This document shows, one piece after another, positions 6,102 to 63,919 of a stretch of 64,000 bases of DNA. Numbering within the stretch: position 1 is the stretch's first letter; each line of letters starts with the position of its first letter. Origin of the DNA: Stentor roeselii (lineage: Eukaryota; Ciliophora; Heterotrichea; Heterotrichida; Stentoridae). The notes beneath the pieces are model-generated. The model made no database searches. It saw only the letters and a program-made list of their open reading frames with translations, and had not been told where the DNA came from. The DNA lies in contig RSEH01000135.1 of NCBI GenBank assembly GCA_006503475.1, forward strand, positions 1 to 64,000. The letters run 5' to 3'. Made by a program: the position numbers and the translations under genes.

Positions 6102-7952
6102 ATGAAGGTATTCCCAGATCAACAACCTAAAGTCCGTTATCAGCTGCTCTGGCGAAAAGTGATTAAAAAGGTGATTCTTAACCAAAAGATCATAAAACTG
6201 CTGAGATCTTCAATAACACCCGGAACAGAAGACCTGGACGAAAAAATCCGGCGATCATCAGGCCTGGCGAAATCTAAAAGTCAAGTCGTGGTTCCTTTTG
6301 GGCTCATCTTGCCAAGAACCTTACTGAAAGAAATCTGGAACCTCTTCATCGGTTTTTTGCTGATTTACTCGGCACTGGTCGTGCCCTTCACGAATTCTTT
6401 TTACGATCTTCAGTCAGGAGACATTCTATTGAACCTGGACATCCTGATAGACATTTCGTTCATCATTGATTTTATTATAAGTCTCAATACCGCTTATTAC
6501 AATGAAGAAAACGTTTTAATATTATCAAGGAAGTCAATTTTCCTTAATTATCTGAAAAATGGACTGGTTATCGACCTTTTTTCCAGTTTTCCTTTTAGTC
6601 TATTTGATGCGACTTCAACCGGGTACTCAAAATTTTTACGTATTTTAAGACTTCGAGCTCTGACGAAACTTTTAAAACTTTCTAAGATTTTCAAGATAGT
6701 CGGTAAAAAAGACCATTCAATCATAAAAAACTTGCAAGATCTGTTTAGTTTTTCTCATAGTTCAATGAGAATCATTAAATTTATTGGAGTTTTGGCTCTT
6801 TGCATTCATTTCACTGCTTGTGTCTGGCACCTTTTAGCGAAACTTGATGATTACGGGCCTGAGACCTGGGTGGTCCGCTCTGGACACCTTGACGACCCTG
6901 CATACAGGAAGTACCTGGTCTCTCTTTACTGGACCTTCGTTACACTTGCCACTATCGGCTATGGGGACATCACTCCTTTCACTATGAAAGAAAAGCTTTT
7001 CAGCGTATTTTGGATGATGTTCGCTCTTTACTTCCTTTCTTTTTCAATCAGCAGTCTCAGTTCAGTACTTTCTCAGATTGACTTGAAAAAAAACCTGGTA
7101 CGTCAAAAAATGGCCTTCATCGACGACTTCTCAAAAGAAGTGAATCTGTCGAAAAGACTGAAAAAAGAACTGCAAAAAATGCTGATTCACAGTATTGATC
7201 GGTTTAACTATTCTTATGATGACCGGGCTAAGTTGATCAGTGAGTTTCCGAATGACTTGAAGCTGGAAATCGCGAATATGATGCAGAAGGGAAAAGTGGC
7301 ACGATTGGACCTTTTTCAAAACGAAGATGACAACTTGTTACTCGAGGTCCTGCCACTTATGCAGAACTTAAACCTGACAGGGTGTCAGTCAGTTTACTCT
7401 TACGGCGAAAGTTCCACTAAAATTTTCTTTATTCTCAAAGGACGGGTTCACTTTTTACTGAAAAACGAAACAACAGTTTTTCAGGTCTTTTCGGAAAAAG
7501 GGTACTTTGGAGATTTAGAAGTGATTCATGGAATCCCCAGAATGAACTCAGCAGTGACTGCCACTGAATGTCGCTTCATCGTCCTAGGCTTGGACTTGAT
7601 TAAAAGGATTCAAAAGAACTACCCGATTTTTTACCATAAGATGAAAAGTGCTGCAAAGTACAGATATTTAATCTCGAAAAGGGCAAAAGTCGAGATGAAA
7701 GCCTTGTCTAAGCTAAGAAGAGATGAAATTATCACAAAGAAAGAATTTGGCAAGATCAGAGAAATCATTCGAAGGAAAACACTCGCTGTTGACTTAAAGA
7801 AAAAAATCATGGCAAATAAAATGATTCAGAAAAGTCATGCAAGGGAAAGTCTGAGACTCACGAATGACTTTTTGATGGAAATTCGAGATGACCTTGAACG
7901 AAACCGCTTTTTAATTGAGAAACTTAGAAGAATTAAAGCGAAAAGTCCTTAA
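6102..7952 (+). CDS. Voltage-gated K+ channel with cyclic-nucleotide-binding domain
   Basis: 616 residues with the EAG/HCN layout. A cytoplasmic N terminus is followed by S1 at about 82-100, an S4 with spaced Arg/Lys near 176-200 (FLRILRLRALTKLLKLSK), S5, a pore loop and S6. The selectivity filter TIGYGD is at residues 284-289, which predicts K+ selectivity. A C-linker leads to a cyclic-nucleotide-binding fold at about 420-520 (GESSTKIFFILKGRVHFLL, then KGYFGDLEVIHG). The canonical FGE and RTA positions are only partly kept (FGDLE, PRMNSAVTA), so nucleotide binding is uncertain. The C-terminal tail is highly basic. Ciliates have many such channels controlling ciliary and contractile excitability. 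Confidence 0.93.
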   Translation: MKVFPDQQPKVRYQLLWRKVIKKVILNQKIIKLLRSSITPGTEDLDEKIRRSSGLAKSKSQVVVPFGLILPRTLLKEIWNLFIGFLLIYSALVVPFTNSFYDLQSGDILLNLDILIDISFIIDFIISLNTAYYNEENVLILSRKSIFLNYLKNGLVIDLFSSFPFSLFDATSTGYSKFLRILRLRALTKLLKLSKIFKIVGKKDHSIIKNLQDLFSFSHSSMRIIKFIGVLALCIHFTACVWHLLAKLDDYGPETWVVRSGHLDDPAYRKYLVSLYWTFVTLATIGYGDITPFTMKEKLFSVFWMMFALYFLSFSISSLSSVLSQIDLKKNLVRQKMAFIDDFSKEVNLSKRLKKELQKMLIHSIDRFNYSYDDRAKLISEFPNDLKLEIANMMQKGKVARLDLFQNEDDNLLLEVLPLMQNLNLTGCQSVYSYGESSTKIFFILKGRVHFLLKNETTVFQVFSEKGYFGDLEVIHGIPRMNSAVTATECRFIVLGLDLIKRIQKNYPIFYHKMKSAAKYRYLISKRAKVEMKALSKLRRDEIITKKEFGKIREIIRRKTLAVDLKKKIMANKMIQKSHARESLRLTNDFLMEIRDDLERNRFLIEKLRRIKAKSP

Positions 7953-7960
7953 TGTATTGA

Positions 7961-8845
7961 TTAGTGCTTTTTTAATAGCTTATGACGCAACTCGAAGTAC
8001 TTTTTCGATGAGACATGTGAAGGGCTGAGAGAATTTGAAATGTTTTTACTTGATTTCGCTTCTTGCATGACTTTCTTGATCTTTGCCTGATAACTGATCT
8101 TTTCTTTACCCTCTGCACCTTTCATGTCGCGACTTTCTCTTACTTCCTTAGCTAAACGACTTGGATTCCTCTGAAGTTCCCTCAAGCTTCCCCCAGAGCC
8201 TTTCTTAGACTTAACAGGTGTCAAAAAGCTTCCTTGAAAACCTTCTTCTTTATGAAGAACAGACCGGGACCTGACCCCAAAGTTCTCAAAGTGCTCGATT
8301 TCTTGTTTCAGCCATTTGGTCTTCGAGGCCTTATGCCAGGACTCAGTTAAGACCTTGTTTTGCATGAAGTCTTTCATGTTTTTTTCCTGTTTTTCTCTTT
8401 CAAATCTTTCAAACATTTCCAAATTTTTCCTTTTTTCAGCCTCGATTTTTTCAAGTTTTTCTGAATGGACTTGGAAGTGTTTTGACCGAATTTGTTCTTC
8501 CAGGTCTTGCTTTACTTGAGACTTTAAAGACTTCTGCCTTTCTTTCCTTTGGTCTTCGGGAGTATGGGGAAGGTTTGGGTATCCGTTAAAAAAAGAAGGT
8601 TTTTTACTTTCAAGTCGCTCTTGAGCAGCTTTTTGATGCTTTTCCTTGATTTGACTGAGTAGGTCTAAAGCGTAGGCCTTTTTGTCAGGACTTTTACGTG
8701 GGGGTAGGTTGAGAGAAGTCATGTGCGGGGCAAGGGGAGATTGCTGTTCAAGTAGTTTTTCGAGGGAGTCAATAAGAAGGGCTTGTTCATGAAGCAAGGC
8801 CTGGCTTTGTAGGTCTTTGGCTGTCTTTTTATTTGGCGAAAACAT
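7961..8845 (-). CDS. Charged coiled-coil hypothetical protein
   Basis: 294 residues from the ATG at 8843-8845. It is Lys/Glu/Gln-rich with a likely coiled coil at about 105-175 (KLEKIEAEKRKNLEMFERFE) and low-complexity Ser/Lys tails. No domain is recognised. Its stop lies only 8 bp from the stop of the convergent channel gene, and its ATG is 43 bp from the divergent gene at 8889. A structural or ciliary role is possible but not shown. Confidence 0.65.
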   Translation of the reverse strand: MFSPNKKTAKDLQSQALLHEQALLIDSLEKLLEQQSPLAPHMTSLNLPPRKSPDKKAYALDLLSQIKEKHQKAAQERLESKKPSFFNGYPNLPHTPEDQRKERQKSLKSQVKQDLEEQIRSKHFQVHSEKLEKIEAEKRKNLEMFERFEREKQEKNMKDFMQNKVLTESWHKASKTKWLKQEIEHFENFGVRSRSVLHKEEGFQGSFLTPVKSKKGSGGSLRELQRNPSRLAKEVRESRDMKGAEGKEKISYQAKIKKVMQEAKSSKNISNSLSPSHVSSKKYFELRHKLLKKH

Positions 8846-8888
8846 GAAAATATAAAGATATTCAGTTGGCTCTTTATCGATAATAAAA

Positions 8889-9512
8889 ATGAAATCTTCC
8901 TTTCATTCCACCAACAACAGCCAGTTCCAGTCAATCACTTCAAAAAGCAGTAGTAGTTCAATCACTTCGATTTTACGTGATTCGTCACCTAATCGACCTA
9001 AAAAGAAAAACAATGTGCGCTTTGAAGACTCGCCAACTGTTTCAGTCTATTCAGAAGCAAGTCCTGCTGATGTGCGCTCCTCAGCAAGTCCATCAAGTCA
9101 AACAGCCTCCAAGTCTCCTTCCCCGGCTAAGCCTTGCACGGCTTTTCGTTCTACTCTGGAAAAAAAGCCGTCGAGTCCTTCTCCATTAAAGCGATCTCCA
9201 GTGAAACTGCTTCCGAGTCCTGAGTCTCGAAATGATTCTGAAGAAAAAAAAAATACTCCGAAGGTTATCAACTACTCTTTTCGAAACCAAGGATTTTATG
9301 ATAAATTGAACAGGTTCTACTCAAAAGACTCTAAAGACTCAAAAGACTCAGCGCCTAAAGAACCAGAAAGAATTTTCATAAAACTTAACCCTCAAGCCTT
9401 CGAGTCACCTGAGGTGAAAGTGATCCATCTTCGCCCTTGCTCAAGTCAAAACTGCCGTAACAAGAGCCGTGAGGGTAAAAAGCGCCTTCGAGGTGCAAAC
9501 ATCTTAAACTAA
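8889..9512 (+). CDS. Ser/Pro-rich disordered protein with possible PP1-docking motif
   Basis: 207 residues, largely Ser, Pro and Lys, with many Ser-Pro sites and no folded domain. The stretch RPKKKNNVRFED (about residues 36-47) resembles the RVxF docking motif of protein phosphatase 1 partners. The match is short and the spacing from the basic residues is loose. A nine-base repeat at 9321-9347 encodes three SKD units. Near the C terminus a Cys-Ser-Ser-Gln-Asn-Cys pair occurs. It may be a phosphorylated scaffold, which is inference only. It faces the calpain gene with 13 bp between stop codons. Confidence 0.6.
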   Translation: MKSSFHSTNNSQFQSITSKSSSSSITSILRDSSPNRPKKKNNVRFEDSPTVSVYSEASPADVRSSASPSSQTASKSPSPAKPCTAFRSTLEKKPSSPSPLKRSPVKLLPSPESRNDSEEKKNTPKVINYSFRNQGFYDKLNRFYSKDSKDSKDSAPKEPERIFIKLNPQAFESPEVKVIHLRPCSSQNCRNKSREGKKRLRGANILN

Positions 9513-47299: not shown

Positions 47300-50200
47300 A
47301 TGAACTTTAAGATTGAAAAGGATGAAAGTGGCCGGAAAGTCTTTCTGGATCATCAGTCGAAGTTTGAGAAGAGATTGTTTCAGAGCATGATGAAAGTTTT
47401 TGAAAGAAGTGAAAATTATTCGAGTTTCAGGGTCTCGAAGTACTATTTTGTCCTGCTTTATGTTATTTTGTATTTACAATTTTCAAGTCTGCAATGGAGA
47501 CCTGGAATGAATCTTAAAGATTGGAATTACTTCCAGGTTTATTGGGAAGTTTTTTCATTTGCGAGGATTGACACGTTGGTTTATAAGTTTGATCTGCAAT
47601 TTCCTGCTTATTTGTTTTTAAGTGCTTGTATCTACGTGACTTTCGCATTGATTTCGATTATTTTTGCCTTTGCTGTTAAGAAGAAAGAACCTCCACGAAT
47701 TATTTGTGTTGTTGTAGGAAAGTTGTTGAAAGTAGAAAGTTCTGTTTTATTGATACCGATTCTGACTTTTTATTCTGTGACTTTGAGTCAGTTTATCAGC
47801 TATTCCCAGTTTTACCCTTCAGAGGTGCCTTTACCACTGAGTTCCTTTTACATGATAAACACAGTTTTTTGCCTGATTCTTCATCTCTTTCACATTTTCA
47901 TCACAGAGTCAATGTCAGTCGAGCTTCGTCACAGTTTTCGTGGGAAAGTATTTGAAGCGAAAGCAAGTTGTTCAATAGACTTAAAGCGAGTGCTTTCACG
48001 AGTGATAATAGTGGAGCTTTACTGTTACTTCTCATCTTCGAACATAGTATGGCTTCACTTGATGTGCTGTGTTGTTTGTAGCTGGTTAGGTTCGATGTAC
48101 ATTCTTTACATTCCTTACTACAACAAAGGTCCTAATTTCATCACTTTTACTAAAATTTCCTGCGAATTCGTCACTAGTGTCAGCTTTTTAGTCGCTCGGT
48201 ACTTGGACAGCAGCTCGTTTTTGCTTTTGTTTAACTTGTTCGTAGTTCCACTTGTCGGGTACCTTTCATTTGAAGTCGTCACTTGGAGGTATAAACATCT
48301 CGCTGGATTAAAATTTGAAGATATTGGAAACCCGCTACTTGTGGAAATCTTTTTAAGGCAAGAACTTTGCAAAAGTGAAGGAAATTCATCGATTATTGAA
48401 AAATTTACCAGGTTTTCACAGCAGAAAAAACATGATTTGGGGTTAATTGCTATTTGGGAATGTAATTATTGCATTTATTCATTGGAAGATTTTCGACTGG
48501 CTTATATTAAACTGGCAAAAGTTAAGAAATCGAATTTTTCATTTGAAATTTCTTTTCAGGAGTTCAAGTGTTTCAAGATTTTAAAGGAAAATGGAAGGGA
48601 CTTGTTGGAAGACTTGAACTTTTTGAATTATATTTTTAAATTGACAAGGGCGAAGCAGGTTGATAGAACAATCGCAAAGGCTTATGTCAACTTTTTGACT
48701 GAAATTGTTTCAGCTGAACCTTCTGTGATTGCTTTAGAGGAGTACTTAGCTGCTTTGTATCAACATTTGAAGTCTTTGAAGAGGTCTTATGAGTCTTTAT
48801 GCAGCAAGTACCATAAAGGAAATGAAAGTCGAAAACTTTGGACGACTTTTAATGAAGATATTTTTGAATATGCTGATCCATTGACTATTTCAAAATTGAA
48901 GTATAAAGAAACTGATAAGATTTTCATGAATGTTATTAACTATTTTGATGAAAGTAATGGAATTATGCTGGTTTCAGCTGAAAAGGAAACTGCGGGGAAT
49001 ATTTTATATGTAAATGAACAGTTTGCAAGGCTGATTGAAGGAAATGTGCATACTTTGACTAACACCCAACTCAATACTTTGATACCTGTTCCTTATTCAA
49101 ACGAACACAACTCATTTTTGGTTAACTATGCTGATCGATGCATTAAAAGTAGTGTTGATTTTCCTTCAGCTTTATTTTTATTAACTGACAGAGGGTTCCT
49201 AGTTGAGTGCTTTTTGTCCATTTCTTGTGCATCTCTTAATTGTCATACATTTTACCTTGTTTTAACTAAAAAAATGGCGAATTGCAGACAAATCGCTTTG
49301 ATTAATTCAGAAGGACTGATTTATGAACATAGTGAAAACTTAAAATTCTTCATTTCAAACCAAAGAACTACCTTTAAAAAATCCTTTATTCAAGAGTATC
49401 TCCCAAATTTGGATCTGCAAGCTCTTCACGCTGGAATCCCTCATGAGTATAAAGACAAGAACCATGATTTTTTTATTGTAAAAACAATAAAAACCATAGG
49501 AAAGCGCGAAATCATTCTCTTGAACTTTGTTAAAGATGAACGAGGACTTAGTGAATTCATGCAACTAGAAAAAACTGAGATGATTGATGAAAATGAAGGC
49601 AGTTTATTTAATACCATCAAAAACATGACTTTTGAAAAAGGAAAAGTAAGGTTTGACAAAAACGACCCAGCAGATGAGAACACTGAATATTTTCATGTGC
49701 TTGAAGAGCGAGACAAAGATAAAACAAGAAGCGACTCTACAGGACTTAAACTTGATGGAGTAGTCCTGGCAATGAACAAAGGTCTATTCTATGGAATCAA
49801 ATATGTCAGAATTGTAAAATGGATGATGATCGGAATAGTAAAAATTATTTAGATGGTCATATCAGTCTGTTCTAACGCGATTTATGTTTACTTCATAAAT
49901 GACCAGGTCACTCTAGCAAACGACGACTATCTTATCGAGCACTTCGGAAGTCTCATCAGTTTTGTTTTGTCTTCAGCGACTTCAGTCAATTATCTTCAAC
50001 TTTCAATCGACCTCAATCTTGACCATCTCCAGATAATGAAGCAAGCCAGCGACAAAGTTACTGACCTAGATGATAAAATCAAATCAGAAAAAGGTACCTG
50101 GAGCCAATGTCATAGAATCTCAAGAATCTTCAGTAAAGACTATCTAAAGGTCTTGTCTTCTGATAGACCTGATCCTATCAAAATGAATTTACAGAATTTT

Positions 50201-60597: not shown

Positions 60598-62340
60598 TTA
60601 GAATTTGTTTAAGTCTATTGGAGATTCGGACTTGTTTGTTAGGTCGGTATTCAAGATCACGGCCTGGTTCAAGTCGTCTTGGCTGTCTAGAGATGACTCT
60701 GAGTTTATTGAAAATATCATCGCTGGGGCTCTTCCTCGGCTTCTTCTTTGCAGAGTTTTTACTCCTAGATCGATTTCGCAGTTTATGAACTCTTCGAAGA
60801 TTGTTGATATGAATTCTTCGGTGTTGTGGTCAATTAGGTTTTTTCCTTTTTTGGATAAGTTCATTGGTTCTCGTCCTCGATTCCCAAAGTTAAATCCTTG
60901 ATTTTTTTCTTCTTTGGATTCAAAATTCATGACAACAACAGTTTCTTCAATTTTATTTTCTTCCTTTTTCATTTTCATCTGTTCATTTTTCCATTTCTCT
61001 ATTTTTCTTTGATTATCATCTTCCAATCTTCTTTCAAGTTCTTCTAATTTCGCTTCAAGTTTTGAAATTTTCTTCAAAACTTCTTCTCCGAACTTTTCAT
61101 TGTCCTTAGAGATTTTCTGCAATTTGATCATATCTTCTTTAATGCAAAAGTCCTGCAAAGACTTCTTAATTTTCTCAATTTCAGCTTTTCCAGCTGAGGC
61201 CATTTTGAGTACTTCTATTTTTTTTGATAAATTATTCGAAATTTCTTCAAGGTCCGTCTTTTTGACGTATTCGTAAAGATTTGGCTTCAAGTCGTTGATT
61301 TTTTTTAGTTCTTGCTTTGTTGCTAAGGAAAAGTTTTGCTGACTTTCTGAAAAAGACTGAGACAACTCTAATAATTCCTTCTTTTTTGAAAAATCTTCAA
61401 AATTCGGTAGTTTTAATTGTTTTTCTTTCAAAAATGAAATCTCATCTTGCAAACTCTGAAATTTTCCCTGATCTTTCATCAGTTTTTGATAGTCTCTGAA
61501 GTTTTCAGCTACAATTTCATCTATTTTTTCGAATCTTTGCAAGAAATCTTCAGTGATTTGATTGATTTTTTTATTAAGATTTGTAAGGTTTTCATTGAAA
61601 TTTTGATTTTTTGTCTCAATTAACTTGAAATTTTTTTTTTTGCTTTTTTCGATTTTTTCTTGAAAATTTTTGTGAAAATTTTCAAGTTTTACTTCGAATT
61701 CTTCGACTTGCCCAGCGACTGACACAAGTGAAAGTCTGACATCATTCGAAATATTTTCTTTCAATTTCCTGACATCGTCACTATTGAGGTGTTTTTTCTC
61801 GAAACTTCTGATTTTTTCTTCAAGTTCATCAATTAAAATATCCTTAAGACTGAAGATTGTTTGTTTGATATCCTTGAAGTTCAATTCAATTTGAAGAGAC
61901 TTTTCATAGTTGTCCGATTTCAGTTTTTCTTCACTGATCCGAAGCTTGTCGAATGTAACAAACTGCTGAGAGTTGCTTTCCAGTCTTCTCAACTCACTTA
62001 AGCATCTTTTTTCAACATTTTCAATAGCAAGGTTCAAATCTTCTTTATACTCGAAAAACTCCGAGTCTAGCTGGTCCTTCACACAAAGTTTCTTATGAAT
62101 TTTCTGTATTTCTAATGAATTTCCTTTCAAATTTTCAATCACGAACTTTTTAAATTGCTGGAAATCAAAAGAAGTTGCTAATAAGTCTTCTTCAGTCCTT
62201 CCAGAGTAATAAACACTTTCACTGAAACGAGTCTTCCCCAGGTTTAATGATTGTTGAGAGAAGTTACGAGATAAGTTATTTTCAGTCTTTTTCAGAAGTC
62301 CTGATATCTTGTTAGACCATTGAGAGGACGAGTAGTCCAT
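60598..62340 (-). CDS. Long coiled-coil protein, 580 residues
   Basis: An N-terminal Ser/Asn-rich 60 residues is followed by near-continuous coiled coil to about 460. After that comes a disordered tail with short clusters such as LQRRSRGRAPAMIFS and Asp/Ser-rich ends. No family is recognised. Its ATG lies only 13 bp from the first exon base of the AMPK-type kinase gene, so the two divergent transcripts share one small promoter. Confidence 0.68.
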   Translation of the reverse strand: MDYSSSQWSNKISGLLKKTENNLSRNFSQQSLNLGKTRFSESVYYSGRTEEDLLATSFDFQQFKKFVIENLKGNSLEIQKIHKKLCVKDQLDSEFFEYKEDLNLAIENVEKRCLSELRRLESNSQQFVTFDKLRISEEKLKSDNYEKSLQIELNFKDIKQTIFSLKDILIDELEEKIRSFEKKHLNSDDVRKLKENISNDVRLSLVSVAGQVEEFEVKLENFHKNFQEKIEKSKKKNFKLIETKNQNFNENLTNLNKKINQITEDFLQRFEKIDEIVAENFRDYQKLMKDQGKFQSLQDEISFLKEKQLKLPNFEDFSKKKELLELSQSFSESQQNFSLATKQELKKINDLKPNLYEYVKKTDLEEISNNLSKKIEVLKMASAGKAEIEKIKKSLQDFCIKEDMIKLQKISKDNEKFGEEVLKKISKLEAKLEELERRLEDDNQRKIEKWKNEQMKMKKEENKIEETVVVMNFESKEEKNQGFNFGNRGREPMNLSKKGKNLIDHNTEEFISTIFEEFINCEIDLGVKTLQRRSRGRAPAMIFSINSESSLDSQDDLNQAVILNTDLTNKSESPIDLNKF

Positions 62341-62353
62341 ATTAATATTCTAA

Positions 62354-63919
62354 ATGTAATTCCCAAACAGGTCAGAAAGCAATCAATTGCCTACAACTTT
62401 TACCCTTGGGCACTACTTAATCGGCAGAACAATCGGAAAAGGAACTTTCGGGAAGGTGAAGTTAGGAACCCATTCACTCACTGGCGAAAAAGTAGCAGTT
62501 AAAATATTGGAAAAAGATAAAATCAAGGACTCTTCAGACGTCGAACGAGTCTCTCGTGAAATAAAAATATTGAAATTAGTGAAACATCCGAATGTTATCG
62601 CCTTGTATGAAATCATTGAAACTCAAAAACAACTCTACTTGATCATGGAATATGCTTGTGGGGGAGAACTCTTTGATTATATCGTCGCTCGTAGCAGACT
62701 TAAAGAACAGCAAGCTTGTCTCTTTCTTCAACAGCTGTTGTCGGGAATTGAATACTTACAGAGAGTTGGAGTCGTTCATCGTGATCTCAAACCGGAAAAT
62801 CTTTTACTTGATGAAAATAAAAATTTGAAAATTGTTGACTTTGGACTTAGCAACTTGTACAAAAATGAAGAAACTTTAAAAACTGCTTGTGGAAGTCCTT
62901 GCTATGCTGCTCCTGAAATGATTGCTGGGAAAAGATATCATGGAAGTCGGGTTGATGTTTGGAGTTGTGGAGTTGTACTTTTTGCTATGATTTGTGGGTA
63001 CCTACCTTTTGAAGACCCCAACACTTCCGCCTTATACAAAAAAATCTTAGGAGGAGAGTACAAATGTGCTGCCTGGGTCAGCATAGAAGCCCAAGACCTC
63101 CTAAAGCGTATTCTAAACACGAACCCAGAGTCAAGATACACTGTTGATCAAATCAGGTCACACATCTGGTACCTAAAACACTGCAACAAGAACTTCATCA
63201 GTTACCCAGCAGGGGAACTATTAAAACTAGATGAAAACATTCTAAAAAAAGTAGAGCAGTTAGGACTGAACATAGAAGTAACAAAAGAAAGTCTAATAAA
63301 AAATAAGCATAACAAGTTCACTTCGACGTACCTGCTCATTCAAAAAAGAGAGAAAAACCTGGAAATTGATCAAAATTTGACTGCGAAAATTGCTCAGCCT
63401 CAGCCACCGTCGAATCCGAGGGGCGATAGTCATAGCATCAACCCGCGCATTAAAAAGTTGTTTGAATATCGCGAAGTAGAGAAAGAAGAGAAAAAAGATG
63501 AAAAAAAAGAAGAACCTCCTAGTCCTTCTAATTATCAGATTCGAGTTAGGGAGGTTAATGTTGCTAAACAACCGAGAAGAAAGGCTTATTATAGCTCGGC
63601 TGATAGGAATAGAGCGGTTAGCACTGGGTATCCTGGAAATCGACCTCATTATATGATGCCCATGGCTCCAATGTCCCAGATGGTTCCAATAGCCCCAATG
63701 GTTCCAATCGCTCCAATAGCTCCACCAAAAGAAGTTCCAAAATCAAAGCACAGTAACCGTCGCAACTTTCGCCCAGTGCATGTACGAACTCCAGTATCCT
63801 ACGCCGAGAACACAAACATGAGCCTGAACCTATCAATCAGGAATTCAAGTCCTCGAGCAGGTACAGCACTAGACGTAAGTGCAAGACGAAGCGAGTTACG
63901 AAACCTTACACTTAAATAG
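62354..63919 (+). CDS. AMPK/SNF1-type Ser/Thr kinase; start codon split by intron
   Basis: 516 residues after removing a 15-nt intron (62356-62370). The uninterrupted frame has no ATG near the kinase start, only a TTG at 62387. The nearest ATG (62354-62356) is followed at once by TAA. Splicing AT|G forms ATG and gives MSESNQLPTTFTLGHYLIGR. Kinase motifs: GKGTFGKV, VAVK (Lys45), HRDLKPEN (Asp139), DFG (157-159), and activation-loop Thr172 in LKTACGSPCYAAPE as in AMPK. A UBA-like segment follows the kinase (about 290-330). The tail is Lys-rich, with a Pro/Ile/Ala minisatellite and no clear KA1 domain. It is likely a stress or energy kinase; MARK/SIK-type is an alternative. Confidence 0.9.
62356..62370 (+). 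other. 15-nt intron splitting the start codon
   Basis: GTAATTCCCAAACAG, flanked by AT on the left and G TCA GAA on the right. Its removal creates the ATG and an open frame of 516 codons. Without it the first ATG is followed by TAA, and the kinase would lack any ATG near its start. Confidence 0.85.
63659..63727 (+). repeat. In-frame 18-bp minisatellite in kinase tail
   Basis: Two 18-bp units at 63680-63697 and 63698-63715, each coding MVPIAP, followed by a half unit coding IAP. Degenerate units such as MAPMSQ precede them. Third-position differences between units show they are not a recent copy-number change. Confidence 0.75.

Follow-up and report, generated by a model that had tools for sequence, protein, structure and literature searches.

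A 15-nt intron predicted to split the start codon in a clade of AMPK/SNF1-like kinases of Stentor roeselii

How is translation of a kinase begun when the nearest ATG ahead of its conserved domain is followed at once by a stop codon? This question is posed by a kinase frame of 515 codons followed by TAG (62372-63919) in the window, the whole 64,000-nucleotide stretch of Stentor roeselii DNA analysed here. A preliminary description of this DNA had noted that no ATG precedes the conserved kinase start, that the nearest one is read ATG-TAA, and that removal of 15 nt would assemble a start codon in frame with the kinase. The reading frame bears out each of these points, and the letters given there for 62354-62371 are correct (Table 1). 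Positions 62348-62380 read TTCTAA AT/GTAATTCCCAAACAG/G TCA GAA AGC. Without splicing, the kinase frame is ATG TAA TTC CCA AAC AGG TCA; excision of 62356-62370 gives ATG TCA GAA AGC in the kinase frame and a protein of 516 aa with the N-terminus MSESNQLPTTFTLGHYLIGRTIGKGTFGKVKL. Downstream, the first in-frame ATG comes at codon 93 of the spliced protein, within the kinase domain. The locus is accordingly the trap for gene callers that it had been said to be: a caller blind to the split starts the kinase 92 residues late, inside its domain. We hold it highly probable (roughly 0.93) that an ordinary 15-nt intron splits the start codon as AT/G, that the spliced ATG is the only usable start, that a retained intron leaves AUG UAA, and that the arrangement was likely gained once in the clade to which this kinase belongs.

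Table 1. Positions of the split start site and its surroundings in the window
Feature	Position	Strand	Basis or remark
First two bases of the start codon, AT (predicted end of exon 1)	62354..62355	+	Same AT in 14/25 clade members
Predicted 15-nt phase-2 intron GTAATTCCCAAACAG	62356..62370	+	GTAA, A10 and AG kept in 14/14 paralogous introns
Putative branch-point A, intron position 10	62365	+	By analogy with published Stentor 15-nt introns
TAA right after ATG on intron retention (start-stop AUGUAA)	62357..62359	+	Sequence
In-frame TAA adjoining the start codon on its 5' side	62351..62353	+	Sequence
Predicted exon 2: start-codon G and AMPK/SNF1-like kinase frame to TAG	62371..63919	+	516 aa including Met
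Head-to-head neighbour ORF, 580 aa, ATG 13 bp from the split start	60598..62340	-	Context, outside the mechanism

The product is a protein kinase (Pfam Pkinase PF00069, E 6e-78). Its best PDB chains are AMPK alpha-1 and -2 (E 7.8e-89 downwards), with MARK (4.4e-86) and SNF1 close behind, and the AMPK/SNF1-like assignment is one of comparison against solved structures only. The best aligned stretches among the 60 PDB matches listed end at query residue 359 of 515 or earlier, and no Pfam domain was found after the kinase domain when the AMPK C-terminal beta/gamma-binding domain was sought. The ORF on the opposite strand has no Pfam match at E 0.001. Its ATG is separated from the split ATG of the kinase by 62341-62353, a gap of only 13 bp; hence, either promoters and 5' UTRs extend into coding DNA of the neighbour, or one of the two starts is misplaced.

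In the proposed mechanism, the spliceosome would excise the 15 nt by means of the 5' GTAA, the branch-point A at position 10 (A10) and the 3' AG, and would join AT to G. Translation would then begin at the rebuilt AUG of ATG TCA GAA, the sole usable start. Where the intron is retained, the ribosome would meet AUG UAA and the kinase frame would yield no product. It follows from this anatomy that translation would depend on splicing, provided that the intron is real. The preliminary description went further on two points. It held that the initiation codon exists only in spliced mRNA, which is right for a usable start, but the unspliced RNA has an AUG too: this one takes the first base of the intron as its G and is followed by UAA, and splicing rebuilds AUG with another G. 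It also held that unspliced transcripts cannot start here; a start is possible, but it would be stopped after one codon.

In its length, its 5' GTA, its 3' AG and its A at position 10, the window intron agrees with the 15-nt introns of heterotrichs; together with the standard genetic code, such an intron would fit a Stentor-like heterotrich. Tiny spliceosomal introns of 15/16 nt are described from Stentor coeruleus (PMC9505925) and Blepharisma (PMC9942806), and according to the former account, 8005 introns, or 90.90% of the total, are 15-nt introns whose branch-point A occupies position 10. The present intron shares its tiny length with both sets, and with that of S. coeruleus also the 5' GUA, the 3' AG and the branch-point position; unlike the introns described in these accounts, it lies within an initiation codon, and neither account uses the term "start codon" in its main text. 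It sits in codon 1 and its removal leaves an in-frame ATG, as is the case for introns that disrupt the start codon, which are relatively rare, especially in plants (Nielsen & Wernersson 2006, PMC1626468). What it has in common with the introns set out in that paper is a place in codon 1, in phase 1 or 2; what differs is that a 15-nt intron is here shared by 14 of the 25 members of a kinase clade and that its retention in those 14 would give AUG-UAA.

The form of the intron stands out from the background of the window. ATGTAA occurs there 42 times (18 and 24 on the two strands), and the site at 62354 is the only one with AGG placed as a 15-nt intron requires. We further built a matrix from 12 internal introns of 15 nt that kinase homology had validated, four from the clade and eight from outgroup kinases, which were recognised as 5-codon, stop-bearing insertions relative to the query kinase. 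These are 12 of 13 distinct internal introns; the one excluded lies in the gene neighbouring a clade member (L028) and also has A10, as do 11 of the 12 that entered the matrix. Three of the 127,970 15-mers of the window, the start intron itself counted, score as high as the start intron. Scores of the split-start introns of the clade range from 6.9 to 14.8 and those of the internal introns from 9.9 to 16.4, with six of the 14 split-start introns below the lowest internal one. These homology-checked introns replaced, as evidence, a scan for ORFs joined through 15-nt GT..AG stretches. That scan is weak alone: it found 17 cases, where the other GT..AG lengths tried had 5-11, but controls with other dinucleotides reach 11 at 15 nt and 22 at a different length. 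As a separate observation, GTAAAAATTATTTAG at 49838-49852 of the window joins two long same-strand ORFs of about 850 and 501 codons; it ends in TAG and is followed by ATG, and is thus either a phase-0 15-nt intron in one gene or the junction of two genes without a gap.

The conservation of the split start was followed in the paralogues of the kinase. A protein search of its own genome (44.4 Mb, 522 contigs), in which 84 of 1288 first-look candidates were scored, gave 84 matches; 30 of these were taken with their flanks and 40 more by their start region, and 14 were left out. The window's own gene was masked in the genome copy, so the search did not return it. In the resulting tree, the window gene and 24 paralogues (L006-L029) form a clade of 25 with a support of 100/100; given that only 84 of the 1288 candidates were scored, the clade may have more members. 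AT/GTAA-N5-A-N3-AG/G is present at the homologous place in 14 of the 25, namely the window gene, L007, L009, L010, L012, L013, L017, L018, L019, L020, L021, L022, L023 and L028. GTAA, A10 and AG/G are invariant in all 14, and the interiors have diverged: positions 5, 6 and 7 show four letters each, and positions 8 and 9 three each (n = 14). Residue 2 after splicing is Ser in ten, Thr in three and Ala in one, and the next in-frame ATG lies at codon 22-173. The matched frame has no other stop-bearing intron in 12 of the 14; stop-free introns are invisible in this count, as 15 nt preserves the frame. The split start looks like a shared and old trait of the clade, judging from these alignments, and its intron is almost certainly spliced in the cell.

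A scan of the window, L002, L003 and L006-L035 returned 149 ORFs of 120 codons or more, which are mechanical ORFs and not checked genes. Twelve are delimited upstream by a stop that is itself preceded by ATG, and all 12 come from the kinase clade; L019 and L020 drop out, their frames being cut short by an inner intron. None of the six outgroup kinases (L030-L035) has a split start, all having plain ones. Likewise, an in-frame 15-nt AT/G split was found in none of 40 more distant kinases, 14 of whose frames left the examined sequence before the start was reached; one of the 40 (L053) has an A/TG-type stretch lacking A10. Of all the kinases examined, only members of the clade have the split start.

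As a genome-wide habit, split starts were considered and dropped, the pattern counts being in modest excess or none and only one of 17 inspected matches being a clear start. AAAATGTAAN5AN3AGG has 20 matches against 4 for its reversed control, AAATAGTAAN5AN3AGG 9 against 13, and AAATGTAAN5AN3AGGTC 7 against 2. The 20 matches of the first pattern include four kinase clade members (C63, C208, C224 and C407). The 17 non-family matches inspected, 16 from this pattern and one from AAATGTAAN5AN3AGGTC, comprise one clear gene start (L037), one ambiguous case with an in-frame ATG upstream (L038), and 15 that look like chance matches or inner introns, their frames downstream being 5-73 codons long. The clear one, at 403-730 of L037 (G000:C52), is an ENY2/SUS1 homologue (PF10163, E 3.5e-25) whose start is split too, as AT/GTAATCCCTAGAAAG/G AAC CAA. 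Split starts are hence also present outside the kinase clade, though they looked uncommon among the loci examined.

TAA is reassigned in many ciliates, and the same letters might be read with no intron at all: TAA at codon 2 would then be glutamine, or be read through, in a protein beginning M-Q/X-F-P-N-R-S. The M-Q start of the closest paralogue (L006, M-Q-S-L-D) made the glutamine reading worth serious thought. The window as a whole speaks against it, with 39 ORFs of at least 150 codons bounded by TAA, TAG and TGA covering much of its length; so does the matched frame, which is stop-free in 20 of the 24 close paralogues and in the other four has stops in 5-codon GT..AG insertions. Moreover, a coding reading fits badly since position 10 would be a fixed third codon base beside first and second bases (positions 8 and 9) that vary, which is not coding-like. 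We consider this reading highly improbable. Just as improbable is that the ATG belongs to a 5' UTR or an inner exon and that the true start lies further upstream behind other introns. Tiny introns are easily missed, and our scan was restricted to the 15/16-nt GTA..A..AG forms; however, an in-frame TAA adjoins the window ATG, and the ORF of the opposite-strand neighbour begins 13 bp upstream. In all 14 members, no in-frame ATG lies between the split ATG and the in-frame stop 0-21 codons upstream of it, and no match to the scanned forms occurs in this open part. The split start codon put forward in the preliminary description thereby gains support from its presence in 14 of 25 clade members whose intron interiors have diverged, from the invariant A10, which is the branch-point position published for S. 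coeruleus, and from the lack of an upstream in-frame ATG or tiny-intron match in 14 of 14.

A different kind of alternative grants the intron and gives it a task: a regulated splicing gate, in which retention and ribosomes halted on AUGUAA would turn the kinase set off under some condition. In favour of such a gate, 12 of the 14 genes show no stop-bearing intron in the matched frame apart from the start intron, and about half of the clade has kept it. Yet every retained phase-2 GTAA intron yields a stop, and nine clade members manage without the split start. In the cDNA-recombination model, introns are lost from the 3' end first and the 5'-most intron goes last. That intron is expected to survive if introns were lost in this way, and the 12 of 14 fit a neutral cDNA-loss model as well as they fit the gate; keeping the 5'-most intron may be neutral. 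A further point for the gate comes from Arabidopsis, where ribosomes stall on AUGUAA, the minimum uORF of the NIP5;1 5' UTR, and decay of the mRNA is triggered (PMC11915504). Unspliced kinase RNA would show ribosomes the same hexamer; unlike that of NIP5;1, which is described as boron-responsive and lies in the 5' UTR, the kinase hexamer would be present in unspliced RNA only, and ribosome stalling on it is a guess from this analogy. On balance we think the gate unlikely. A wider form of it is slightly less likely still: translation of at least 14 kinases would be switched as one by shifts in spliceosome activity, as in starvation or regeneration for example, and AUGUAA on unspliced RNA would serve as a stall-and-decay element. 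If this shared gate were true, paralogues that have lost the stop and kept the splice signals would be natural mutants escaping it. Under the reading we prefer, that of an ordinary start-codon intron, it would be retained without a special regulatory role.

The members of the clade without the split start bear on how it was gained and lost. A plain ATG is present in nine of the 25 (L006, L011, L014, L015, L016, L025, L026, L027 and L029), including the closest paralogue of the window kinase, L006, which begins ATG CAG TCC TTA GAC. L025 (ATG ACT) and L026 (ATG TCG) are placed in starred groups with split relatives, and both look like precise intron losses from their positions in the tree. Two further members are of intermediate form. 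L024 (G000:C505), the starred sister of L017, reads ATGTACCAAATATCTAGG: GTA (as GTAC), A10 and AG/G are kept and the stop is gone, so it could give a protein spliced or unspliced. At the start of L008 (G000:C56), which reads ATGCTCGACGCAGAGAGG, GC replaces GT, A10 and AG/G are kept, and the unspliced frame is open. For L006 and L008, we tentatively suggest an exonised intron. With nine plain starts and two frames that are open unspliced (L008 and L024), the split start is not required for function. The trait needs at least seven changes on the tree, a count that was seven both with L008 and L024 omitted and with the two set to split. As the outgroup starts are plain and at least seven changes are needed, the most likely course would be one gain at the base of the 25-gene clade followed by about six losses, on a tree several of whose deep forks are weak and 12 of whose 28 inner branches are starred.

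One further copy of the region was met through an exact 17-mer match on contig C428 (L001/G000:C428, about 7371-9264). This is a broken copy of the divergent locus, with both neighbour ORF and kinase, which has 75-82% identity over the aligned pieces, many indels and one inverted piece. The longest identical run, 37 nt from 62353, spans the split start; the number of runs of at least 36 nt expected in the comparison is about 0.04. We give it little weight as a sign of constraint, since nothing obvious would hold a decayed copy under constraint.

Start-codon introns, though rare, were already known; what is new here is one that is common to a gene clade. Among the matches listed from the open-licence literature, none described split start codons in a family of ciliate kinases. 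For heterotrich gene callers, the clade is a warning of split-start genes with no visible ATG before the kinase domain. For the biology of the family, a single genome holds natural variants of the trait: starts from which the intron was apparently lost with precision, a stretch that kept the splice signals but not the stop, and possible exonisation. By virtue of these variants, a comparison of sister genes within the same genome can test how a start-codon intron affects expression.
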